Source: a virus | Length of the DNA stretch: 26,250 nt | Direction: 5' to 3' (one strand) | Virus record (IMG/VR): IMGVR_UViG_3300034158_000016 | Coordinates: 1-26,250 of that record | Shown: in pieces, positions 2,876-22,824 of the stretch | Layout of the letters: each line of letters opens with the position of its first letter | Numbering within the stretch: the first letter of the stretch is position 1 | Program-made: the position numbers and the translations under genes | The notes under the pieces: generated by a model | What the model saw: only the letters and a program-made list of their open reading frames with translations | What the model was told of the DNA's origin: nothing | Database searches by the model: none

Positions 2876-3405
2876 GCATCGGCTAGGCTCGCATCATCGG
2901 CCTGGATCGGGGCATGGGTGAGGGATGAGGTGGTGGGGTTGCGCGAGGTCCGCGAGGCATTGTGCGAGTGCCGCCTTGTCAGGCTCCCGATGCCCCATCC
3001 AGGTTGATTGACTTGGCCATTCATCATTGTGGCTGGGGCGCTTGGCAAGGGCAGAAGTGCTCATTGTCCCGTTGAGGGATGTGGCCAGGTGAACAATTGA
3101 ATGGTTGGGCGTGGTCGAATGGTCGGCCATTGCCCAGCGTGGATGGCGAGACTAGAGCACACTGGTCTCGCCACCCGCATATGCGGACTTGGGCAATGGG
3201 TACATCGCTGGCTCAAAGCCCAAGAGGAGCCCGGCTTGGCATAATCGGGTGACCCCTTGCCCGAGGTTGGCCGAGCCGGGCACCCTCATTTGTTGGACAA
3301 CCTCGCCCGGCCCAATGCCGCAGGCTCTGTGGATTTGGCCCGGCATCCCGCCCGGCTCGGTAGGCTCGGTGACGGCCCGGATTGGGCGTGAACCGAGGAG
3401 AGCAA
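2876..3405. other. 530-bp stretch without a convincing gene
   Basis: This gap follows the putative small terminase. It contains a strong hairpin and a 12-bp palindrome (3144-3186), an 8-bp inverted repeat (CGAGGTTG at 3262-3269 with CAACCTCG at 3298-3305), a CATAAT sequence at 3240-3245 and a TAGGCT sequence at 3361-3366, 40 bases ahead of the next ATG. A 29-codon frame from GTG 2918 to 3007 is possible but unsupported. Its place beside the putative small terminase makes a packaging-site or late-control role conceivable; nothing proves it. Confidence 0.5.
3144..3186. repeat. hairpin followed by a perfect 12-bp palindrome
   Basis: TGGCGAGAC (3144-3152) pairs perfectly with GTCTCGCCA (3165-3173) around a 12-base loop. 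Two further G-C pairs are possible beyond one mismatch. It is followed one base later by the palindrome CCGCATATGCGG (3175-3186). There is no T-run, so a classical intrinsic terminator is uncertain, although actinobacterial terminators often lack one. The palindrome could be a dimeric-protein operator. Confidence 0.6.
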
Positions 3406-3639
3406 ATGGACATGGGCATGGGCGACAAGATCGAGATTGCCGGCAAGCCGGTACGGCTCGATGAGGCATACCTGGATGCCATCCGGAAGGATGCCCGCAA
3501 CCTGCTGTACTTCAGCGATGGGACCTCCGGTGCGGACAAGATCGGTCGGCTGCTCGCCACGGTCATCCCGCTCACGCTGGAGATTGAGGCGCTCAAGGTC
3601 GAGGTGACCCGGCTCCGCGCTGAGTTGAAGTTGCGGTGA
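3406..3639 (+). CDS. hypothetical helical/coiled-coil protein
   Basis: A 77-residue protein. Residues 8-20 (KIEIAGKPVRLDE) look like a short beta segment, residues 23-35 are helical, and the C-terminal 30 residues (IPLTLEIEALKVEVTRLRAE region) show a heptad pattern typical of a coiled coil. The ATG at 3406 is chosen over frame-open upstream codons because it follows AGGAGAGCAA at ideal spacing. It opens a chain of overlapping genes: its stop overlaps a GTG start (GTGA at 3636-3639). I do not recognise the family. It may oligomerise with the coiled-coil products that follow. Confidence 0.7.
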   Translation: MDMGMGDKIEIAGKPVRLDEAYLDAIRKDARNLLYFSDGTSGADKIGRLLATVIPLTLEIEALKVEVTRLRAELKLR

Positions 3640-4052
3640 GCGCCGAGCCCGGGATGGGCCAGGAGGACATGGAGAGCGTGCCAGGAGCCAACGAGGAGCG
3701 TTGGGACGCACCCCGGGAGGGCAGGCCCTTCCCCATGGTCGTCAGTGGGCGTCGGGCGGGCAAGGCCGTGGCGGCTCTCGCGGCTCTCGGATCGGAGTTG
3801 AGCCGGACCCGAGCGCTGCTGGAGAGCGTGACCCGCGAGTCCACTGCCGCGATGAACGATGCGAGCGTCAAATTGGGCAATGCGCGCGATGAACTCATGC
3901 TCGCAACGGCCACGGTCAGGGCGCAACAGATCACGATTGAGGAATTGCGCGCTGCCAATGAAGATGCCCGTTTGCTGATTCGCTCGGCACGTGAGCGTGA
4001 GTTAGCCTTGGAGTCTGAAGTGAGCCGATACCAAGAGAAGGAATTGCGATGA
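3636..4052 (+). CDS. hypothetical coiled-coil protein
   Basis: A 138-residue protein if read from the GTG that overlaps the preceding stop (GTGA). In-frame ATGs at 3654 and 3669 are alternatives; an AGGAGG stands just before the second but only two bases from it, too close to be optimal. The first 35 residues are acidic and Gly/Pro-containing. From about residue 40 to the end the sequence is a nearly unbroken charged helix with Leu/Ala heptads (for example LRAANEDARLLIRSARERE), so a dimeric coiled coil is likely. No catalytic motif is seen. The last codon and stop overlap the next gene (ATGA at 4049-4052). Confidence 0.65.
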   Translation: MSAEPGMGQEDMESVPGANEERWDAPREGRPFPMVVSGRRAGKAVAALAALGSELSRTRALLESVTRESTAAMNDASVKLGNARDELMLATATVRAQQITIEELRAANEDARLLIRSARERELALESEVSRYQEKELR

Positions 4053-4639
4053 CCGAGCCCGTTGCCGGAGATGTGTTCAAGATTGCCGAGGCCCAACTCA
4101 AAGCGATGACCCGAGCCCGCGATGGTCTCGCTCAGTCGCTCAAGGCGTGCGAGGAGCGTTGCGACGGCTGGGAGGCCAAGGTTGTCGCAATGGATGGCGG
4201 GATGACGAGCCTGACGGCCAGCCTGGTCGATGCTCAGGAGCGCGCGGACGACTGGAAAGCCAAGTGCATCGAGCGCGATGACCGGCTGGAGAGCGCCGAG
4301 GCCGAGATCAGCCGCTTGACCTTTGCGCTCCACCTCGCAAAGGCACACCCTGACTTTGAGTACATCACGACTCAGAGCCAGCGGAAGGGTGACGGCAACT
4401 ATCCGCCCGAGATGGACGGTGGAGCGTGGCAGCCCAACCCCATTGTCTTTGCCAATATGACCAAGGGGCAGGAGCGTTACCGCGCTTGGCAGCGCTTTGA
4501 GTTCTATGAGGAGGAGTACTGGCGCAGGGTCAAGACCGAGCGCCCGCTGCCGTCGCAGGCTGAGATGGACGAGGAGAGCGACGCAAATGCAGAGCGCTTT
4601 GCCGAGGTCGAGCACGTTGATCCGGACGGCCGACGCTGA
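4049..4639 (+). CDS. hypothetical protein with N-terminal coiled coil
   Basis: A 196-residue protein. Residues about 10-95 form a long helix with regular hydrophobic spacing and two Cys in KACEERC. The second half is aromatic and globular-looking (PDFEYITTQSQRK, then WQPNPIVFANMTKG and a Trp/Tyr/Glu-rich WQRFEFYEEEYWRR). The tail is acidic. No known domain is recognised. The gene overlaps its neighbours on both sides (ATGA in, TGATG out), so the products of the run 3406-5408 are probably made together from one message. Confidence 0.7.
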   Translation: MTEPVAGDVFKIAEAQLKAMTRARDGLAQSLKACEERCDGWEAKVVAMDGGMTSLTASLVDAQERADDWKAKCIERDDRLESAEAEISRLTFALHLAKAHPDFEYITTQSQRKGDGNYPPEMDGGAWQPNPIVFANMTKGQERYRAWQRFEFYEEEYWRRVKTERPLPSQAEMDEESDANAERFAEVEHVDPDGRR

Positions 4640-5007
4640 TGGCGCGCCAAGTGGAGGTTGACCGGCTCGTGCGTGAGTTGGCCGACGTCAAGGCGTCTGC
4701 ATTGCGCTCCATTGAGCGGATCACCCGAGAGCGCGACGCATGGGCTGAGCATTACGACACCTTGGCCACGCGCATGGGCATCCGATCCGTCAACCCAATG
4801 CGGCGCGAGCCTGTGCCGACTCCTCCGGCTGTGGCCGAGTGGGAAGCGCTGAAGGGTAAACTCATCCCTATGCCCGAGCCCACGTTTGTCCCGCCCAGCG
4901 CCCTGGAGGAGTTGGCGCGCGCTGTGCTCAACGGGCGGATCGGCTTGTACAAGGATGACGGCAAGAAGCAGTGCGAGTGGTACATTGGAGTCGAGGAGCC
5001 CAAATGA
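4639..5007 (+). CDS. hypothetical protein, coiled coil plus C-terminal domain
   Basis: A 122-residue protein starting at an ATG that shares one base with the previous stop (TGATG). Residues 3-45 are a charged helix with heptads (VDRLVRELADVKASALRSIE). A Pro-rich linker follows (PVPTPPAV and PMPEPTFVPP), then a short domain ending in KKQCEWYIGVEEPK. I do not recognise it. The stop overlaps the JAMM gene start (ATGA at 5004-5007). Confidence 0.65.
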   Translation: MARQVEVDRLVRELADVKASALRSIERITRERDAWAEHYDTLATRMGIRSVNPMRREPVPTPPAVAEWEALKGKLIPMPEPTFVPPSALEELARAVLNGRIGLYKDDGKKQCEWYIGVEEPK

Positions 5008-5408
5008 TTCGACTCCTCAAGCGGTCCAGTGGCGGGCTCAACAACCCGCAAGACGCCGAACTCATGCGCATTGTGAAGCGGATGCCTGAGAAGGGCAAGA
5101 CGTACATGCGAGGCCGCCACTGGACCTCCGGCTATGAGGTCTGCGGGGTCATTACTGCAGGTGATCGCATTGTCGAGATGAACAATGAGGCCACCGGGCC
5201 GGGCAAGTTCGCATTTCCTGCAATGGCGGTTGTGGCGTTGTATGAGGCGGCTGGGACCTCCGAGCAGGCAAAGGCAATTTGGCACTCTCACCCCAATGGG
5301 AATGATGAGTTGAGCGAGGCAGACAAAGCCGCTCACCCTGCATTTGTGCCCTTTGCCGTGATCGTGAACCCCAAGGATGGAATTGTCTCCTGGTGGGAGA
5401 TGCATTAG
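5004..5408 (+). CDS. JAMM/MPN-family zinc metallopeptidase
   Basis: A 134-residue protein carrying the whole JAMM signature. A glutamate, E45, lies in YEVCGVI, the usual place for the catalytic acid. It is followed by H94-S-H96 and, after seven residues, S104-x-x-D107 (HSHPNGNDELSEAD). In this superfamily the two His and the Asp bind zinc and the Glu activates water to cleave isopeptide or peptide bonds. Known phage members are tail-assembly peptidases such as lambda gpK, usually with an NlpC/P60 domain beside the tail-tip genes. This one is a stand-alone domain upstream of the large terminase, so its substrate is open: a phage structural protein, a host protein or a ubiquitin-like conjugate. 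The ATG at 5004 is chosen because it overlaps the previous stop; extra upstream codons lie inside the neighbour. Confidence 0.85.
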   Translation: MIRLLKRSSGGLNNPQDAELMRIVKRMPEKGKTYMRGRHWTSGYEVCGVITAGDRIVEMNNEATGPGKFAFPAMAVVALYEAAGTSEQAKAIWHSHPNGNDELSEADKAAHPAFVPFAVIVNPKDGIVSWWEMH

Positions 5409-5803: not shown

Positions 5804-6000
5804 TGCCGACCGAGGATGACCGCGTGACGGTCGAGGGTGTGATGGCCGTTGTGGTCAGCGCCGAGATTGAGGGTGTGATCATTGCATTGGGCGATGAAGC
5901 CAATACGCGCTTGGTCTTGTCCAACGGCGAGGCAATGGAGATGTCTGTCGCTTTGGCGGAATGTGCACTCAATCGGCACATCGAGGGATTTGTCGACTGA
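5803..6000 (+). CDS. hypothetical 65-residue protein
   Basis: A small beta-strand-rich protein (VMAVVVSAEIEGVIIALGDE) with a C-terminal helix (MSVALAECALNRHIEGFVD). Both ends overlap neighbours by one base (TGATG at 5801-5805 and 5998-6002), placing it in a coupled set directly upstream of the large terminase. No known domain is recognised, and the terminal VD rules out a ubiquitin-like Gly-Gly tail that might have paired with the nearby JAMM protein. Confidence 0.7.
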   Translation: MPTEDDRVTVEGVMAVVVSAEIEGVIIALGDEANTRLVLSNGEAMEMSVALAECALNRHIEGFVD

Positions 6001-7487
6001 TGGCCAAGATCATCGACAATGTGGCGCTGCGGGATGGCGTGTTCAAGCGGGTCGGCTATGAGCCGCACCGAGGGCAACGGTCCATTCACACGTCAACCGC
6101 CCGGCACCGAGTCGCAGCCTGTGGCCGACGCTTTGGCAAGTCATTCCTCGGTGGGGAGGAGTTGACTGTTGAGGCTTTCCGGGCTCGCTTGATCCTCCCG
6201 AGCCTGGAACAAAGCGGCAAGCGGCGTGAGTTCTGGATCGTCGGCCCCAACTACACTGACGCTGAGAAGGAATTCAGGGTCATGTATGACGGGCTCGCCA
6301 AATTGGGCGCGCCATTCGACAAGCCGGGCACCTACAACAATCCTCACGATGGGGATATGCAGGTGTCGCTCTACAAAGGCAAGTTTGTGGTCATTGCCAA
6401 GTCGGCTCAATACCCTGAGCGGCTTGTCGGTGAGGGTCTCAACGGCGTGATCATGGCCGAGGCCGCAAAGCAAAAGCCATCGACCTGGAACAAGTACATT
6501 CGCCCAATGCTCGCGGACTACAATGGGTGGTCTTTGCACACATCTACCCCTGAGGGCAAAAACTGGTTCTATGACGCGTGGATGCGCGGGCAGTCGCAAT
6601 TTGAGACCGACTGGGAATCATGGCGGATGCCGTCGTGGCGCAACCCGTATGTCTACCCGCATGGCGCGACCAAGGCTGCGGTCACCTCGCTCCGGCGGGC
6701 AATCGACTCCAAGACCACTGCAATTACCTCGGATATGATGCTCGCAATGGGCGTCGATCCCGAGGTTGGCGCGCTCATGAAGGATTTGACCCAAGAATCC
6801 TTTGGCGCTGAGATTGCAGCGGAGTTCACCGAGTTTGTCGGGCGTGTGTTCAAGGACTTTGATGAGGAATTGCACGTCAAGGACTTCAACTACAGGCCCG
6901 ATTGGCCGATCTATGCGGCTGCTGACTACGGATTCACCAACCCGTTTGTCTGGCTGCTGATCCAGATCAGCCCGGACGGCACCGTGTGGGTGCTCGATGA
7001 GATGTATGAGCGCGGATTGACCATTGATGAGGCCGGTGATGAGATTCTTGCACGCGGTCTGTGCCCGAGTAGCGTCAAATTGCTGTATCCGGACCCTGCG
7101 AGCCCTGGGGACACACGCGCGCTTGAGAAGAAATTGCACATTCGTGGCATGCGCGGCACTGGCGGGCTCCTCTCGGTGCGTTTGCGGTACATTCGTGCCG
7201 CTCTCAAGGAGCGCAATACGCATTTGCCGTATGGATCGGCTGAGCGACAGCCCAAGATGTTCATCAATCGGCGCTGCATTGAGACAATTCGTGAGTTCAG
7301 CGCCTACCGCTATCCGCAGACGGTGGCCGAGGCAGCCGACCGAGGCAAGGAGCCGTCCGAGAATCCCATGAAGGTGGACGACCACACGCCCGAGACCTTG
7401 GGGCGATTCTTTGCAGGGCATTTCGGCGTGCCTGATGCGGGCCGCGAGCGCCGAGGAGCCCGTCAAGCCACCGCCGATGTATCCTAG
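6000..7487 (+). CDS. terminase large subunit (packaging ATPase and nuclease)
   Basis: A 495-residue protein of typical length for the large terminase subunit, the motor that translocates DNA into the prohead and cuts the concatemer. Walker A is CGRRFGKS at residues 41-48. Walker B is GVIMAEAA (149-156) with catalytic E154 and Ala where Asp is common. The coupling motif is TSTPEG (181-186). The nuclease domain has D309 in AAADYGFTNP, D365 in LLYPDP and D460-D461 in KVDDHTPETL, matching the three acidic positions of the RNase H-like fold. The ATG at 6000 is chosen because it shares a base with the previous stop; an in-frame ATG at 5961 lies inside that gene. The stop codon overlaps a TAGAAT sequence that may be a promoter element for the next gene. 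Confidence 0.95.
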   Translation: MAKIIDNVALRDGVFKRVGYEPHRGQRSIHTSTARHRVAACGRRFGKSFLGGEELTVEAFRARLILPSLEQSGKRREFWIVGPNYTDAEKEFRVMYDGLAKLGAPFDKPGTYNNPHDGDMQVSLYKGKFVVIAKSAQYPERLVGEGLNGVIMAEAAKQKPSTWNKYIRPMLADYNGWSLHTSTPEGKNWFYDAWMRGQSQFETDWESWRMPSWRNPYVYPHGATKAAVTSLRRAIDSKTTAITSDMMLAMGVDPEVGALMKDLTQESFGAEIAAEFTEFVGRVFKDFDEELHVKDFNYRPDWPIYAAADYGFTNPFVWLLIQISPDGTVWVLDEMYERGLTIDEAGDEILARGLCPSSVKLLYPDPASPGDTRALEKKLHIRGMRGTGGLLSVRLRYIRAALKERNTHLPYGSAERQPKMFINRRCIETIREFSAYRYPQTVAEAADRGKEPSENPMKVDDHTPETLGRFFAGHFGVPDAGRERRGARQATADVS

Positions 7488-11564: not shown

Positions 11565-13130
11565 ATGGCCGACGCCATCCCAGTGATGACACCATATACA
11601 ACGGCGCTGCCGATGTTCGGCGTGCTGCCGACTTGGATGGATACCAATGACGCGCAGCGCATTGCCTCATACCAGGTATATGAGCAGATGTACTGGAACA
11701 TCGATCAGACGTTCAAGTTGGTGCAGCGCGGGAGTCAGGCCAATCCTCTGTACATTCCGTCCGGCCGGACGATTGTGGACACGACCAACCGCTACACCGG
11801 CACCGCATTCTCTGCATTGGTCGATCCCGAGTTTGGGACTCCGGCCGATCAACTCTCGCTCAAGACCGCGCTGCGGCAATTGTTCGCGCGGGAGAGGTTC
11901 AAGAGCAAGTACAATGCCGCCAAGCGCTATGGCCTGATTCGTGGCGACTGGGGATTCCACATTGTGGCTGATCCCAACAAGGCAGAGGGCTCGCGGCTCT
12001 CCATCTACTCACTCGACCCGGGCTCAATGTTCCAGGTGACGCACCCGGATGATCTGGAGCGCATTCAGGCCTGGCACATTGTCGATCAATGGATTGATCC
12101 GGAGTCCGGCGACACCTACCTCAAGCGGCAGACCTATTCCAAGGGTCCTGACCCGTATGACCCCGACAAGGACGACGGCAAGATTTGGTCGAGCCTGGCC
12201 ATCTACAACATGGATGACTGGAGCGAAAGCGGATCGAGCCCGTACATCAAATTGGAGGAGCCCGCTCCTCTGCCCGACTCAATCACGGCGCTGCCCGTCT
12301 ACCACATCCGCAACTTTGAGGAGCCCGGCAATCCTTGGGGCTCCTCGGAATTGCGCGGGTTTGAGGCGCTCATGGCGTCGATCAACCAGAGCATGACTGA
12401 TGAGGAATTGTCGCTTGCCCTTGACGGGCTCGGCGTGTATGCCACGACCTCCGGACCTCCGCAGGACGACGACGGCAATGACGTCAATTGGCGGCTCGGG
12501 CCGGGCCGCGTTGTTGAACTCGATCCGGTGGACCAGCAGAGCGTTGACCAAATCTTCAAGCGGGTCAATGGGGTCGGCTCGGTCACGCCATACGGCGATC
12601 ACATCAAGCGCGTGTATGACTTCATGATGGAGGCCAGCAATACTCCGGACGTTGCGCGCGGCAAGGTCGATGTTGCGGTTGCCGAGTCGGGCGTGTCGCT
12701 CAACATTCAGTTCAGCCCGATGCTCGCCAAGGTCGGTGAGAAGGATGACTGCATCTCGGATGCAATGACGCAATTCCTGTATGACCTCGCATTCATGTGG
12801 TTCCCTGCATATGAGGGCACCTCATTCGGTGACGCCATCGCCGTCCCGCAATTCGGTGAGAAGTTGCCGGTCAACAAGGCCGCCAAGGTCACCGAGATTC
12901 TGTCCATTGTCGAGAGCGGAGTTGCCTCGGCAGAATGGGGCCGGATCGAATTGGCCAAGTACGGCTACCTGTTCGATGCGGCTGAGGGCTCCAAGGTGGT
13001 CGCTGAGACCGCTGCCAAGGCGTCTGCGGCCGATACCTTTGCCACCAGGAGCGCTGCGGAGATGGACGGGACGGCCGGAGCGACCGGCGAGCCGTCCGGA
13101 GCCGCTGAAGGTGGCACTACGGCTGCGTAG
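11565..13130 (+). CDS. portal protein
   Basis: A 521-residue protein of the length and position of siphoviral portals, which form the dodecameric ring at one capsid vertex through which DNA passes and to which the terminase and MuF protein attach. Supporting features are the N-terminal helices with a Tyr-rich segment (YQVYEQMYWNIDQTF), the core with GDWGFHIVADP and SIYSLDPGSMF, the conserved turn NFEEPGNPWGSSEL, and the helix with MEASNTPDVARGK followed by SGVSLNIQFSPML. The C-terminus is Ala/Gly-rich. A good ribosome site (GAGGAGG) precedes the ATG. Downstream come a 39-residue basic protein and the MuF fusion. Strength rests on fold-typical motifs plus context; no sequence search was run. 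Confidence 0.88.
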   Translation: MADAIPVMTPYTTALPMFGVLPTWMDTNDAQRIASYQVYEQMYWNIDQTFKLVQRGSQANPLYIPSGRTIVDTTNRYTGTAFSALVDPEFGTPADQLSLKTALRQLFARERFKSKYNAAKRYGLIRGDWGFHIVADPNKAEGSRLSIYSLDPGSMFQVTHPDDLERIQAWHIVDQWIDPESGDTYLKRQTYSKGPDPYDPDKDDGKIWSSLAIYNMDDWSESGSSPYIKLEEPAPLPDSITALPVYHIRNFEEPGNPWGSSELRGFEALMASINQSMTDEELSLALDGLGVYATTSGPPQDDDGNDVNWRLGPGRVVELDPVDQQSVDQIFKRVNGVGSVTPYGDHIKRVYDFMMEASNTPDVARGKVDVAVAESGVSLNIQFSPMLAKVGEKDDCISDAMTQFLYDLAFMWFPAYEGTSFGDAIAVPQFGEKLPVNKAAKVTEILSIVESGVASAEWGRIELAKYGYLFDAAEGSKVVAETAAKASAADTFATRSAAEMDGTAGATGEPSGAAEGGTTAA

Positions 13131-13294: not shown

Positions 13295-15793
13295 ATGCCC
13301 CAGCCGCTCGGTGACAAAGGATCGACGCTCAACCCGTTCTTGTTTGTGCAGCAGAACACTGAGCGCGAATTGCGCGCGCAATTGCATGCGGCCGCACAGG
13401 ACATTGGGTCTGCGCTCCAGCGGTTGGAGGGCACTGACGGGATCGGCGCAGTGGCTCGCAGGGCGCAATACCGGATCGTGCAAGCCGAGATTGCCGCGAC
13501 ACAGGCTGCGCTTTGGGATGGAGTCGGCTCGACAATATCAATCGGCAAGGCGAGAGCGATTGATGCTGCGGCCGACTCCATCGCCAGCCTGACATCAATC
13601 TACCTTGCCGCGCCGGGCGTGCCCGTCCCTGCCGACCTCGCAGAAGCGCTGGTGTTTCAGGCCCGCCAAGGAATGACCAATGTGATGTCTCGCTCAACCA
13701 ACGGCATCTCATTGTCCGACCGCGTGTATGACCAACGGGCGCTCTCCACCGGCAAGGTAGCCCAGATCATTGACTCGGGCATCATCGGCGGAATGTCGGC
13801 GCGAGAGATTGCAAAGCAGGCATACCAGTTCATCTCTCCGATGACCCCTGGAGGAGCGAGTTACGCGGCAATGCGGCTCGGTCGCACCGAGTTGAACAAT
13901 GCATTCCACACGACGGCCGTCAAGCAGTGGGGTGTAAATCCCTTTGTTGAGAAGGTCGTGTGGAACCTCTCCGGCTCGCACGTCGTGCCGGACGAATGCA
14001 ATGCCCTTGACGGCCAGCAATTCGACCCGGCCAAGGTCCCTGGGAAGCCGCACCCGCAATGCTTCTGCTACATCACTGCATTGATGACCGATGAAGACAA
14101 GATGGTCGAGAAGTATGCAAACGGCGAATATGACGCATACCTTGACGACAAGATTGCCGCGAGCGCTTCCAAGTTCCCTGAGACCGACCGCGAGCGCGCC
14201 ATGGCTCTCACGCAGCGTCGGGTGTACACCGGCCCACCCGGACCTATGGGCGGGCTCCCGAGGGCCAAGACCATCCTTGAGTTGCCCGTAGCCCAGCGTA
14301 GTGCCTATCTCACAGGTGGAGAGCGGGCTCTGATCAAGCGCGTCATGACTACTCCGGCCGGATCGACCAAGGCCGTGGCCAAGAAGGCAATTGCCAAGGC
14401 TCCGGCTCGGGCGAAAGCGGTTGTTGCCCCAAAGCAGACCGTGTTCCAGGCCGAACACGCCGCTGCCAAGGCTCGGCTGCCCGTTGACCGCTCGATGATC
14501 GGCAAGGTCAAGGGCAAGGATTTGACCAGCGCTGAGGCCAAGGCCGAACGCATTGCTCAGAACAATGCCAAGGTTGGCGGGCCGGAAGCAATTGCAAAAT
14601 TGCCGCAATTAGAAGTTGAACTTGCCAAGTTGGAGGCTCTGGCCGATGAGGCAAAAGCCGTAGGTGAGGCCGTTTGGAAACTCCGGCTGGTGCCGACCGA
14701 CGAATGGCCCGCAGCAATCAAGGCTGCGCTGAAGGATGCAAAGGTCTCACTCAACGGCGAGCACCGGGACATCTATGACAGGGTGTTCAATTGGCAACAG
14801 GCCGTCAAGCAGAATTGGCAATTGGCTCGCGGTGAGGTCGGAGAGTTGCGCGGCGCAGTCCGGTCGGCCAAGGACATCATGGCCCAGACTTCTGATTGGT
14901 CGCTCAAGGGTGTCGTCCGGGCCGACATTGACCCGCTGACCGGCAAACTCGGAGCCGACTCCCAGAAAGCGCTCGATGCAATTATCGATGCCGGCAAGGC
15001 GATGGACAAAGAGATCAACGCGCGCATGTTGATCAAGTACGGCGAGCGACCGGCCGACATTCCCTATGGCAGCGGCAACCCGGTGACCTATGAAATGCGG
15101 AATGCCCGTGCAATTGCCCAGCGCGCATGGGACAAGCGGGCAGGAAAGATGCTCACCGATGTTCTGGGCGAGGTCCGGCCGCTCGGAGGCAAGGGACCTC
15201 AGTTCATTCTGCGTGAGTATGACGATGCACTAGGCGCTCCGATCCTGAAGTCTGACCCGAACAAACTCATGAAGCGCATGGAGGCTGCACAGGCTCGGTA
15301 TCCGGCCGAATGGAATGCGGCCAATGCTGCCGCCAACCCCAGGGTCAATGTGTTCCAGGTCAATCGTGGATACAATCGAGCAGGCAAGGACATTGCCTTG
15401 TCCGGCAAAAGCCAGCATGTTGCGACCCATGAACTCGGGCACTCCATGGAACTTGTCGTGGACGGGCTGCGCGGCTCCGAATGGGCGATGATCCATTCTC
15501 GCTCGATTGTTGAGGATGCAGCGACAGGCAAGTGGAAATTGCCGCTGATGGAGCAGACAAGTACCAATGCAAGCGCTGCCGGTGAACTTGGCTTGCGGGA
15601 TGCTTGGTCCAGTCGGTACTCCGGCCGCGTGTACGGTGATCGTGCTGTAGGTGCCGATGCACAATGGGAAGTCTTTACAACTGGGGTAGAGTCACTAATG
15701 GACGGGTCGGAGTATTTCGGCGGGCTGCCGGGGCAACGGTCTCTCGATACGCAATTCAAACACTACATCTTGGGAGTGCTCAGTGTCCTCTAG
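13295..15793 (+). CDS. MuF-domain head protein fused to a zincin metallopeptidase
   Basis: An 832-residue protein in three parts. Residues about 1-270 are the MuF minor head protein domain: RLGRTELNNAFHTTAVKQWG near residue 194, then KVVWNLSGSHVVPDEC, and the terminal HPQCFCYITA near 256. MuF proteins bind the portal inside the head and can enter the host with DNA. Residues about 340-690 are Ala/Lys-rich and helical. The C-terminal domain carries HELGH at 712-716 in HVATHELGHSMELVVDG, with E792 in QWEVFTTGVE as the probable third zinc ligand, the layout of gluzincin peptidases. The catalytic acid would be E713. Fusions of MuF to C-terminal effectors are known as MuF polymorphic toxins; this phage-encoded peptidase version could be an ejected effector or a head-maturation protease. 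Its 3' end overlaps the next gene by 11 bases. Confidence 0.85.
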   Translation: MPQPLGDKGSTLNPFLFVQQNTERELRAQLHAAAQDIGSALQRLEGTDGIGAVARRAQYRIVQAEIAATQAALWDGVGSTISIGKARAIDAAADSIASLTSIYLAAPGVPVPADLAEALVFQARQGMTNVMSRSTNGISLSDRVYDQRALSTGKVAQIIDSGIIGGMSAREIAKQAYQFISPMTPGGASYAAMRLGRTELNNAFHTTAVKQWGVNPFVEKVVWNLSGSHVVPDECNALDGQQFDPAKVPGKPHPQCFCYITALMTDEDKMVEKYANGEYDAYLDDKIAASASKFPETDRERAMALTQRRVYTGPPGPMGGLPRAKTILELPVAQRSAYLTGGERALIKRVMTTPAGSTKAVAKKAIAKAPARAKAVVAPKQTVFQAEHAAAKARLPVDRSMIGKVKGKDLTSAEAKAERIAQNNAKVGGPEAIAKLPQLEVELAKLEALADEAKAVGEAVWKLRLVPTDEWPAAIKAALKDAKVSLNGEHRDIYDRVFNWQQAVKQNWQLARGEVGELRGAVRSAKDIMAQTSDWSLKGVVRADIDPLTGKLGADSQKALDAIIDAGKAMDKEINARMLIKYGERPADIPYGSGNPVTYEMRNARAIAQRAWDKRAGKMLTDVLGEVRPLGGKGPQFILREYDDALGAPILKSDPNKLMKRMEAAQARYPAEWNAANAAANPRVNVFQVNRGYNRAGKDIALSGKSQHVATHELGHSMELVVDGLRGSEWAMIHSRSIVEDAATGKWKLPLMEQTSTNASAAGELGLRDAWSSRYSGRVYGDRAVGADAQWEVFTTGVESLMDGSEYFGGLPGQRSLDTQFKHYILGVLSVL

Positions 15794-16195: not shown

Positions 16196-16993
16196 ATGAT
16201 GGGACTCAAGACCAGCCTTGGAGTCGTGGCAAATCACCACGACCCGCTTGGCATGACGGCTGACGGGCGTGTCATTTGGCCCATTGTTGGTGCCGACTCT
16301 GACGGCGAGGACTCCGAGCAGGAGGACTCGGACGACGACGACGACACCGACGACGACGATGACGCCGACGATCAGGATGACGACGGCAAGAAGGGCAAGA
16401 AGTCCAAGAAGGACAAGGAGCCGGAGGACGACGACGACGACGATGCTGCATTCTGGCATTCTCGCGCTGATCGTTTCAAGGCTCGGATGGAAGCAGCGGA
16501 TCGCAGAGCGACCGTTGCCGAGCGGGAGAATCGTCGCCTGAAGGCAGGCAAGGATGACTCGCTCGATGAGCACGGCAAACAGGACCTCAAGGACTCGGTG
16601 GCCAGGGCGGCCAAAGCCGAAAGCGACCTTGCAGGCCTGCGGCTCCAGAATGCCATTCTGACGGACACGACATACCAGTGGGAGGACCCCGAACTGGTAT
16701 TGGCCGCGCTCGCCAAGGATGACACGGTGGAGATTGACGAGAATGGCAAGGTGGTGGGCGTGAAGCAGGCGCTGAAAGCGCTCGCCAAGTCCAAGCCGTT
16801 CTTGGTCAAGAAGGCAGTCATCAAGCCCGATCCCAAGGATGCCGATGACGAGGACGACGACGACGATGAGGACGATGAGGAGCCCGCCAAGAAGCGGACC
16901 TCAGGTGCCCCGTCGAATGGTCGCAAGTCCAAGTCCACGACTCCTGACCGCAAGGCGCTGATTGCCAAGTACCCGTCGTTGTCCCGTCGTTGA
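16196..16993 (+). CDS. capsid scaffold protein
   Basis: A 265-residue protein with the scaffold hallmarks: very acidic Asp/Glu runs (about residues 35-65 and again about 215-235), interrupted by short Lys blocks (KKGKKSKKDKE). A central helix of about 80 residues with coiled-coil spacing (WHSRADRFKARMEAADRRAT onward) follows, and then a basic C-terminus that probably contacts the coat protein. Scaffolds assemble with the coat into the procapsid and leave before DNA entry. Ribosome site AGGAGG precedes the ATG at 16196; an ATG at 16199 is an alternative. Position just before the decoration and coat genes matches. Confidence 0.8.
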   Translation: MMGLKTSLGVVANHHDPLGMTADGRVIWPIVGADSDGEDSEQEDSDDDDDTDDDDDADDQDDDGKKGKKSKKDKEPEDDDDDDAAFWHSRADRFKARMEAADRRATVAERENRRLKAGKDDSLDEHGKQDLKDSVARAAKAESDLAGLRLQNAILTDTTYQWEDPELVLAALAKDDTVEIDENGKVVGVKQALKALAKSKPFLVKKAVIKPDPKDADDEDDDDDEDDEEPAKKRTSGAPSNGRKSKSTTPDRKALIAKYPSLSRR

Positions 16994-17016: not shown

Positions 17017-17394
17017 ATGGCAAGGTTTGAGAAGGTCGATCCCAAGGATGGGTCCTTCCGCGCTCCGCTGGGATTTGACATCCTCGCGGCTGCGGTCGGC
17101 ATCCCGGTCGGCGTCGGCATTGACGCGAATGGCGTCGCAGTCATCGGTGCAGCGGGCGTGCCCGCACGGATCGTCGGCATTGTCGTGCCGTCGAGCCCGA
17201 TGAACATCGGTGACGCCATCGACGTCATGACCGATGGCGAGGTGGCCGATGTCACTGGCTTCCTGGCCGGAGACCAGGTTGTGGCCGATGCCACCACCGG
17301 GCTGCTCGGAACAAGTGCCGCGACCGGCGAGACCGATGTGCGTGTCGGCTTCACGGTTCAGGCTTGGCGCCTCATTGTCCGGATTGCGCGGTGA
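17017..17394 (+). CDS. putative capsid decoration (head fibre/stabilising) protein
   Basis: A 125-residue, Gly/Val/Ala-rich, beta-predicted protein with small repeats of the GIPVGVGID / GVAVIGAAGVPA type and a turn-rich middle (GDAIDVMTDGEVADVTGFLA). Small proteins of this size and composition located between scaffold and coat genes are commonly head decoration proteins that bind the capsid surface and stabilise it. Family assignment is not certain; a weaker alternative is a head-completion protein. Its stop lies six bases before the coat start used here. Confidence 0.6.
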   Translation: MARFEKVDPKDGSFRAPLGFDILAAAVGIPVGVGIDANGVAVIGAAGVPARIVGIVVPSSPMNIGDAIDVMTDGEVADVTGFLAGDQVVADATTGLLGTSAATGETDVRVGFTVQAWRLIVRIAR

Positions 17395-17399
17395 GCGAA

Positions 17400-18641
17400 A
17401 TGGGAACCATGAACAGCACCCTTGTCCGCCCGTCCCGCAACCTCCTTGTCGCGAGCGCGGGCCTGATCACGCCCAAGCACGCCGGTGAGGCATTCGGCCT
17501 GGGCATTGTGCCCGGTGTCGGTGGCTCGATGGCCCGAGGCATTCACGCCAACGGCGACAAGATCACTCAGACCGCCGATGGCCAGGACCTCAACGCCATG
17601 TGGAATGAGTTTCAGGCGAGCCTCGGCATCTGGAATGAGAAGCGCGACAGCCTCGTGCGCTTCCTGTCCTATGGTGTGACGGCCGCATCCGAGATGGTCT
17701 ATCAGGCTGGCGCCACCGCCAACTTTGAGGATGCCTCGGAGTATGGCGAGCCGGTCGGTTACCGGCCCGAGGCGTCGAGCGCCACGATGGGCTACACGTT
17801 CAAGTGGAAGGATCTTGCATTCCGCTACACGTGGCAGTACCTTGCCGACGCGCTTGCCTCGCAGATCGCTGCGGACAACTCGATGGCCATCGAGGCGGAC
17901 AGCCGCGAGGTGTTCATCCAGGTGATGGAGACCCTGTTCGGCAATGTGCGCCGGACCAACAAGGAGGGCGTGGTTGTTTACCCGTTCTACAACGGGCAGA
18001 CCGTCGATTCTTTCGACACCCCGCCGACCTACCGCAGCACCTCATTCGCTGCAGGACACAACCACTTCCTCACGACCGGCGCATCGTCGCTCGGCCAGGA
18101 GGACGTGGAGGCGCTTGAGGACACGATCACCGAGCACGGTTACATCCGCAGGAATGGCAACACGCTGATCCTGATGGTGAACCGCATCGAGGGCAACGTG
18201 ATGCGCAACTGGCGCTCGATTGCCAATGGCGGCTCCGGCCGCTATGACTTCATTCCCGCGCAGGGCACGCCGGCATTCCTTCTGCCTGCTGACCCGCGTG
18301 TGCTGGAGTCGGCAACTCGACCGGCCGCTGCATACCAGGGATTCGATGTCATCGGGTCCTACGGCGAATGGCTGGTCATCCAGGAGGACTACATTCCTGC
18401 TGGCTACCTCGCTGGCTTTGCGACGGGCGGGCAGGATTCTCTGCCCAACCCCATCGCTTTCCGCGAGCACGCCAATGCCGGTCTGCGCGGGCTCCGGCTC
18501 GTCAAGGGTCGTCAGCCTGACTACCCGCTGGTGGATTCCTTCTACAACCGTGGATTCGGCACCGGTGTCCGTCACCGTGGCGCGGCTGCGATTCTGAAGG
18601 TCACCGCTGGCGCGTACACCCCGCCCAACTTCCGGGCCTGA
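17400..18641 (+). CDS. major capsid protein
   Basis: A 413-residue protein read from the ATG at 17400; a GTG at 17391 overlapping the previous stop and an ATG at 17409 are alternatives. It has the size and position of an HK97-fold coat protein. Visible stretches include the N-terminal arm, a long helical region (EVFIQVMETLFGNVRR), the VYPFYNGQTVDSFDTPPTYR turn, and a strand-rich A-domain portion (LILMVNRIEGNVMRNWRSI). The C-terminus carries the hydrophobic/aromatic pattern of the coat core. In HK97-fold phages about 400 copies build the shell. No protease-site or lysine-asparagine cross-link can be judged. A perfect 15-bp hairpin follows the stop. Confidence 0.85.
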   Translation: MGTMNSTLVRPSRNLLVASAGLITPKHAGEAFGLGIVPGVGGSMARGIHANGDKITQTADGQDLNAMWNEFQASLGIWNEKRDSLVRFLSYGVTAASEMVYQAGATANFEDASEYGEPVGYRPEASSATMGYTFKWKDLAFRYTWQYLADALASQIAADNSMAIEADSREVFIQVMETLFGNVRRTNKEGVVVYPFYNGQTVDSFDTPPTYRSTSFAAGHNHFLTTGASSLGQEDVEALEDTITEHGYIRRNGNTLILMVNRIEGNVMRNWRSIANGGSGRYDFIPAQGTPAFLLPADPRVLESATRPAAAYQGFDVIGSYGEWLVIQEDYIPAGYLAGFATGGQDSLPNPIAFREHANAGLRGLRLVKGRQPDYPLVDSFYNRGFGTGVRHRGAAAILKVTAGAYTPPNFRA

Positions 18642-21959: not shown

Positions 21960-22553
21960 ATGGGAAAGACCAGAAACACCAGCGGCAACCCGGCAATCCG
22001 CGCGGCTGCGGCCAAGGCTCGCGCCGAGGCAAATGAGACACCGCTCCCGCCCGTCGATCCGTCGCAGCGGTCCACGGCCGCCAATTGGAAGAGCAAGGCC
22101 AAGACGGCCGATGACGCGCGTGACCTGCTCCTCCCGAGCGGCAATGTCGCGCTGGTGAAGCGGATTGCGCCCGAGGCATTCCTGGCGTCTGGGATGATTC
22201 CCGACGCAATGCAGCCGATCCTGGAGAAGTCCATTCGCTCCAAGCAGGGCCTGCCGCCTGAGATCGAGCAGGACATGCTGGCCGACCCCAAGATGCTGAA
22301 GTCGATCATTGAGTTGATGGATGCGGCGATTGTTGCGGCCGTTGTCGAGCCGCGCGTCATTCTCGCCGTGCCCGAGGGCCAGGAGCAGCCGGATGACTGC
22401 ATTCTCGCCTCTGATGTCGAGTTTGAGGACAAGGCGTTCATCTTCAACTACGCGCTCGGAGGCAGCAAGGACCTCGCGCGATTTCGTGGAGAATCCGACA
22501 ATGTTGTGGCACGCCTTTCAACTGGCATCGACGTTCCACTGCCGGCCAAGTGA
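21960..22553 (+). CDS. tail assembly chaperone, short product (G-like)
   Basis: A 197-residue protein directly after the tube gene, with AAGGAG ahead of its ATG. An Ala/Lys/Arg-rich first third is followed by helical segments (LVKRIAPEAFLASGMIP, IIELMDAAIVAAVVEP). It ends with KAFIFNYALGGSKDLARFRG, a segment typical of the end of the G-type chaperone ('F-x-F-ALGG-x-DL-x-x-FR'). G-type proteins bind the tape measure and are absent from mature tails. The frame closes at TGA 22551. A fraction of ribosomes probably shifts near its end to make the longer product. Confidence 0.8.
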   Translation: MGKTRNTSGNPAIRAAAAKARAEANETPLPPVDPSQRSTAANWKSKAKTADDARDLLLPSGNVALVKRIAPEAFLASGMIPDAMQPILEKSIRSKQGLPPEIEQDMLADPKMLKSIIELMDAAIVAAVVEPRVILAVPEGQEQPDDCILASDVEFEDKAFIFNYALGGSKDLARFRGESDNVVARLSTGIDVPLPAK

Positions 22554-22824
22554 GATGTACGGCATCGAGGGCAAGTTCAGGGCATTCCAGTTTGATAGCG
22601 CAGTCGCTACATTCGGGCGTGCTCTGAATGCTGCTCTCGATGCCGTGGAGGGCAAGAACAACAAAGCAATCAACGCCAAGAGGGCTCGGCTGCTCGATGT
22701 GTGGCTTGAGAGGCCGTTGAAGTACCGCTCCATTAGTGCACCTAGCAAACCCGTTGGCCCGACCGCTGACGCCGAGAATGACATCGTTGAGACCTTCACG
22801 GTGACGGGCGTGGTTGGAGGATGA
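21960..22824 (+). CDS. tail assembly chaperone, frameshifted product (G-T-like)
   Basis: The downstream part lies in the +1 frame relative to the short product and is open to TGA 22822-22824. It reads FHCRPSEMYGIEGKF, AVATFGRALNAAL and ARLLDVWLERPL, a pattern of the T domain. A shift from TTT to TTC at 22482-22485 would join residue F175 of the upstream part to VENPTMLWHAFQLASTFHC, giving about 287 residues. In this interval the +1 frame has more G/C-ending codons than the upstream frame (13 of 18 against 9 of 17 over 22500-22554). Other slip points, such as CTT-T at 22515-22518, cannot be excluded. A separate start at ATG 22555 would give only 89 residues. Confidence 0.7.
22482..22485 (+). 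promoter_or_regulatory. candidate +1 frameshift site TTT-C
   Basis: In the upstream frame the Phe codon TTT is followed by C. A Phe tRNA moving one base forward would pair with TTC, a classical +1 slip. The position is inferred from where the +1 frame starts to look like the conserved T domain. No stop or rare codon follows, so efficiency is unknown. Confidence 0.4.

Follow-up and report, generated by a model that had tools for sequence, protein, structure and literature searches.

Nucleotides 5004 to 5408 of the viral DNA analyzed here are a real gene for a single-domain JAMM/MPN+ metallopeptidase, and its product is a member of a broad, uncharacterized set of JAMM proteins encoded in phage head and packaging modules, here in a variant position. 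The whole stretch of DNA, which we call the window, is an entire IMG/VR record of 26,250 bases and may be less than a whole genome. The JAMM gene and the window genes described around it, from TerS to the major capsid protein gene, are on the + strand. A sequence-only reading of the window had presented a stand-alone JAMM in this position as unusual; its account of the gene was accurate and its implication of rarity was not, as we describe later.

The JAMM gene and its predicted product

The 134-codon reading frame begins with an ATG at 5004, and its stop codon ends at 5408. A Shine-Dalgarno-like GAGGAG lies at positions 4993 to 4998, and in the ATGA at 5004 to 5007 the start of the gene shares 4 bases with the stop of the gene before it. 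The GC3 value of 0.69 is similar to that of adjacent genes. The translated sequence matched the Pfam Prok-JAB domain (PF14464) with an E value of 1.6e-7 and 31.7 bits, for which the curated cut-off is 25, and matched PHROG JAMM families, whose entries are named tail protein, at 2.4e-7. Because the 2 scores are accompanied by the GAGGAG, the ATGA overlap and the neighbor-like GC3, we regard the JAMM match as beyond chance.

The motif of the protein is E-x(48)-H-S-H-x(7)-S-x2-D. It is built by E45 (codon at 5136 to 5138), the predicted catalytic glutamate, which was invariant in both of our alignments; by H94-S95-H96 (5283 to 5291), of which the invariant histidines are predicted zinc ligands; and by S104-x-x-D107 (5313 to 5324), which supplies the motif serine and the predicted zinc-ligand aspartate, again invariant. 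The coordinates, frame and 4 key residues (E45, H94, H96 and D107) given by the sequence-only reading were thus correct. That reading would have been undermined by homologues lacking the zinc ligands, and we observed that the ligands were kept in 31 of 31 stand-alone phage homologues. Throughout the alignment of these 31 sequences, positions E45, G48, N61, H94, H96, P97, S104 and D107 were identical, and every one of the 31 matched Prok-JAB. No NlpC/P60 part is present in the 134-residue protein, which consists of a single domain. The protein is probably active as a zinc peptidase. A degenerate remnant of a JAMM domain, either nuclease-like (of RadC type) or non-enzymatic, would be in keeping with weak RadC matches in 5 of the 31 homologues and with the lack of a JAMM in most relatives; however, the metal and catalytic residues are retained in the window protein and in all 31 sequences, and peptidases were the best fold matches, and we consider a remnant most improbable.

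An AlphaFold2 model of the window JAMM, built with the alignment of 31 homologues, had a mean pLDDT of 79. A comparison of the model with known structures bore out a JAMM fold. The best solved structure was Pyrococcus furiosus JAMM1 (PDB 5ld9; Z 11.6, 20% identity), followed by Desulfitobacterium DSY2949 (Z 10.4), a Caldiarchaeum Rpn11 homologue with ubiquitin (Z 10.3) and Citrobacter BubCD (Z 9.9). Among viral models, the top matches came from 2 Gordonia phages, Suzy and Yikes, and from Mycobacterium phage Indlulamithi, and all 3 are head-module JAMMs. Searched by itself against the PDB with phmmer, the window sequence gave no meaningful match; with a 15-sequence JAMM profile, PfJAMM1 was among the matches. 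The window protein has in common with PfJAMM1 (PDB 5ld9 and 5lda; solved with ubiquitin-like SAMP2) the minimal JAMM fold and the active-site motif, but PfJAMM1 is a cellular archaeal enzyme with a ubiquitin-like partner, whereas the window JAMM has no known one.

These fold matches bear on the main rival of our preferred explanation, possible but less likely than it, namely that the protein is an accessory counter-defense isopeptidase, made during infection or packaged, that strips host ubiquitin-like proteins (of the CBASS Cap2/Cap3, Bil or Bub types) from phage or host targets. The closest solved folds do cut ubiquitin-like tags (PfJAMM1 with SAMP2, BubCD, the Rpn11 homologue with ubiquitin, and a Ubl-deubiquitinase complex from a bacterium), and, as described below, the gene is patchy among relatives, has no phage-encoded ubiquitin-like partner near it and lies within a stretch of lineage-specific genes. 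Yet the defense JABs of PADLOC matched the window JAMM very weakly (best E 0.013), NCBIfam yielded just a sub-threshold desampylase match, and the homologues are linked to head genes, not to early or anti-defense genes. If the JAMM did remove host ubiquitin-like tags, it would represent packaging-linked counter-defense.

Neighboring genes in the window

The order of genes in the window is TerS, 4 ORFs, JAMM, 2 small ORFs, TerL, about 10 small ORFs and portal, followed by MuF, scaffold, capsid and tail genes up to the tape measure. The small terminase subunit-like gene (TerS, 2321 to 2875) was recognized by matches to phrog_7407 (2.7e-17) and to phrog_10899, terminase small subunit (8.8e-17); its PHROG families are also found upstream of the clade-B JAMMs discussed below. 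Immediately 5' of the JAMM are 4 overlapping ORFs with starts at 3382, 3636, 4049 and 4639 (together 3382 to 5007; GC3 0.74–0.84), mostly coiled-coil-like, for which we found no homologue among the loci fetched; the JAMM gene sits within a stretch of lineage-specific genes.

The large terminase gene (TerL, 6000 to 7487) matched phrog_2 at 2.9e-36 and Gordonia phage terminases at 52% identity, and the portal gene (11565 to 13130) matched phrog_64 at 7.3e-35 and actinophage portals at 37–40%. The MuF-like minor head protein gene (13295 to 15793) matched phrog_17987 at 2.1e-39, the scaffold-like gene (16196 to 16993) was assigned from synteny and a profile match with relatives, and the major capsid protein gene (17364 to 18641), whose start is uncertain, matched annotated major capsid proteins of relatives. 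The window shares these 5 genes with actinobacterial phages, including those with type-A JAMMs (see below). MuF is downstream of the JAMM at a distance of about 7.9 kb. As a separate observation, this MuF is 832 amino acids long and has a C-terminal HELGH zincin motif at residue 712, which makes it a likely packaged metallopeptidase effector.

The sequence-only reading had placed the JAMM upstream of the large terminase, and this is so, with the 2 small ORFs between; it is also downstream of TerS. The description of a stand-alone JAMM outside the tail block and unfused to NlpC/P60 was borne out by the single-domain ORF between TerS and TerL. Because the contig ends in the tail block right after the tape measure gene, the tail-tip genes are out of view. 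We also concur that no Gly-Gly-ended ubiquitin-like protein is encoded nearby: there was no plausible candidate among all window ORFs, and the sole clear -GG end (...TGVVGG) belongs to a frame at 22321 to 22824 that overlaps the start of the tape measure gene and resembles the region of the tail assembly chaperone.

Contexts of phage JAMM genes

JAMM proteins have been proposed to be paired with the ubiquitin-like gpI in phage tails, as in gpK (Iyer 2006, PMC1779556), and in the literature that we searched, phage JAMM domains were described solely in tail assembly (same reference). Looking for papers on JAMMs of phage head modules or on deubiquitinases encoded by phages, we found none. The sequence-only reading had taken phage JAMMs to be chiefly tail-tip proteins; we observed, instead, that stand-alone JAMMs are widespread in the head modules of cultured actinophages. 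In a tblastn search of phage records, the first matches were JAMMs of the stand-alone kind from phages of Gordonia, Mycobacterium and Micrococcus, and in 12 annotated phage genomes the stand-alone JAMM was placed in the head module, near portal, MuF and scaffold. Searches of cultured actinophage records gave 95 and 141 matching records, some of which were tail types. Scans with the window JAMM by itself found no relative among viral contigs and one distant Sphingomonas protein among genome contigs, and scans with 3 relatives found near-copies only.

Pattern scans of IMG/VR for WH[ST]HPxGx(4)SxxD yielded at least 164 loci. Together with the earlier loci, these gave at least about 180 phage JAMM ORFs, some duplicates counted, most of them stand-alone, which we sorted by context with profiles made from the window's own genes. 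In context A (portal-JAMM-MuF-scaffold-MCP), at least 66 JAMM ORFs, duplicates included, adjoin or overlap MuF or scaffold; this arrangement is frequent among Gordonia and Mycobacterium phages. In context B the JAMM follows TerS and/or just precedes TerL; at least 53 ORFs, including 3 copies of the window, are of this kind, with at least 5 others farther upstream of TerL and at least 3 downstream of it. The remaining ORFs have no head gene close by, and context T is the tail module beside gpI: in all 24 ORFs tested that lack a nearby head gene, the downstream gene matched phrog_32 (tail assembly protein, gpI). From the counts of B-position loci, the placement of a JAMM ahead of TerL recurs, with at least about 50 IMG/VR loci having one between TerS and TerL, contrary to the implication that this position is unusual. 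Nor did the nearest homologues cluster with tail-tip genes, a finding that would have told against the sequence-only reading; they cluster with head genes.

Among records related through TerL, a clear JAMM match was present in 6 of 47, one being the divergent form of locus L083, and, when we considered just the 22 that exceed 45 kb, in 3. With regard to divergent forms, JAMM-like domains upstream of TerL in L093 (706 to 1221; TinyMiny gp3) and L083 (1396 to 2262) carry the motif in the shortened form HxHx6SxxD and lack an obvious catalytic Glu.

Relationship of the window JAMM to other phage JAMMs

The window JAMM scored 68.8 bits against the type-A profile, 49.2 against the gpK-like profile, 46.7 against T and 44.9 against B; the A, B and T profiles were built without it. 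Its 8 top pairwise matches were all of type A (MuF- or scaffold-linked). Among phage proteins, the actinophage head-module JAMMs (those of Gordonia phages Terapin, Suzy and Lambo, and of Mycobacterium phages Cuke, Send513, Troll4, Konstantine, Patience and Indlulamithi) match it best in sequence and in fold, and have in common with it the single domain, the same motif and the TerL/portal/MuF/capsid module. They differ in position, since the actinophage JAMM follows portal and adjoins MuF or scaffold, whereas the window JAMM precedes TerL, 8 kb from MuF, and thus lacks the adjoining MuF or scaffold by which type A is defined. We treat the window JAMM as a probable type-A gene that would have been relocated to between TerS and TerL.

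In the best tree, the window JAMM was placed beside the JAMM-NlpC protein of locus L168, which is gpK-like (support 95/87, 40% identity). This placement, and the name tail protein borne by the PHROG matches, would be expected if the protein were a tail JAMM of the lambda gpK type, separated from its NlpC/P60 part and relocated, that still acts on gpI. Lambda gpK (JAMM-NlpC/P60) and the stand-alone tail JAMMs beside gpI (a set with 100/99 support in the tree) do belong to the same Prok-JAB group as the window JAMM. The latter, however, has neither the NlpC/P60 part nor a gpI neighbor and is outside the tail block, the tail-tip region being off the contig; the branch of L168 is long and its composition odd; and the gpK-like profile without L168 gave 40.9 bits, as compared with 68.8 for A. 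We consider a split tail JAMM very unlikely.

Clade B (support 100/99) occupies the same genomic slot as the window JAMM, which has TerS upstream (2321) and TerL downstream (6000), and includes single-domain JAMMs of IMG/VR loci, Curtobacterium phage Shrew (gp36) and Microbacterium phage Triscuit (gp26). The order in this clade is TerS-zinc finger-JAMM-TerL, in which a small gene overlaps the start of the JAMM ORF and encodes a protein of 85–124 amino acids with the arrangement CxxC...H...H, the C, C, H and H being invariant. This CCHH protein adjoined the JAMM in at least 50 loci (L203, L145 and L162 among them) and was absent elsewhere in a set of about 270 loci, about 80 of which had been picked via TerL and not via JAMM. 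A Pfam search with it gave no convincing match, and this mini-protein is undescribed. Among cultured phages it is encoded by Shrew (gp35), Triscuit (gp25) and Huwbert, all three of which have a B-type JAMM. The clade-B JAMMs also have GPS before the motif aspartate and, usually, a C-terminal W[YF]. In many clade-B phages, a conserved small protein (SEYGG...NT.QPKG..LT..D.LRLGYL.G) is encoded between JAMM and TerL, for example at L255:1694-2047 and L158:3192-3548.

Its position suggests that the window JAMM could itself be part of the clade-B unit, acting with or on a zinc-finger protein near the terminase; the zinc finger precedes the JAMM in at least 50 loci, and although the best tree places the window JAMM outside clade B, an AU test did not reject its grouping with B (p 0.318), nor did it reject a grouping with A (the Terapin group). 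But a search of the window with the CCHH profile gave no match, the window JAMM lacks both GPS and the terminal W[YF], and the B profile scores it 24 bits below A. We find membership in the clade-B unit unlikely and, the zinc-finger partner and GPS being absent, did not assign the window JAMM to B from its position in spite of the AU result.

Proposed role

Our preferred reading, to which we tentatively give somewhat less than an even chance, is that the window JAMM is of the head-module kind, has been relocated, and cleaves either a head protein or one that is packaged. The Pfam, motif and fold evidence, the viral fold matches, the common head genes and the type-A scores support a head-module protein; the 8-kb distance to MuF and a tree that does not group the window JAMM with A argue against it. 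Context A is linked to MuF, and B to TerS and the zinc finger, which parallels the pairing of JAMM with gpI proposed for tails and favors a processing role on a protein of the head or a packaged one. According to this proposal, the protein would be a minimal zinc peptidase like the stand-alone ones of head modules; in related phages that have a JAMM, its usual place is directly before or beside MuF, and here it would have shifted to the TerS-TerL interval. It would presumably be co-expressed with packaging and head genes, and may trim one specific head protein or packaged cargo protein, cutting at or after a glycine by hydrolysis of a peptide or isopeptide bond. We identified neither a cleavage product nor a substrate site for the window JAMM. 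Since only 6 of the 47 TerL-related records had a clear match, assembly in the window lineage does not require the JAMM, and its patchy presence among close relatives favors an accessory role.

More speculatively, and with considerable reserve, stand-alone JAMMs might be an unrecognized, recurrent part of packaging and head modules, with lineages locked to MuF or to a TerS-coupled zinc finger, whose Gly-specific or ubiquitin-like processing would take place during capsid assembly or act on cargo that is injected along with the DNA, without a phage ubiquitin-like protein. Our survey adds 2 more groups of stand-alone JAMMs, each locked to its context; they belong to head and packaging modules, including those of cultured laboratory phages, so that the substrate is directly testable.

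In GenBank, head-module JAMMs of actinophages bear the labels metalloprotease, tail protein or capsid maturation protease. For the frequent names tail protein and capsid maturation protease we found no supporting test, and papers on Patience capsids do not discuss the Patience protease. The JAMM of Kurnik (L005:13558-13908) is unannotated, the listed CDS at 13604-13879 using a different frame.

Two further observations concern the neighbors of type-A JAMMs. In related loci with a type-A JAMM, MuF is mostly short (about 300 amino acids), and in those in which we found none it is often long, exceeding 400 amino acids in 8 of 57 cases with and 25 of 51 without (Fisher p 1.3e-4, uncorrected for kinship); because relatedness is uncorrected, we set this difference aside as evidence. 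Upstream of many type-A JAMMs are very basic, K/R-rich proteins (Troll4, Hawkeye, LittleFella, Patience, P3.1, L112, L124 and L142), and the one in P3.1 (L092:17475-18185) carries the label capsid maturation protease.
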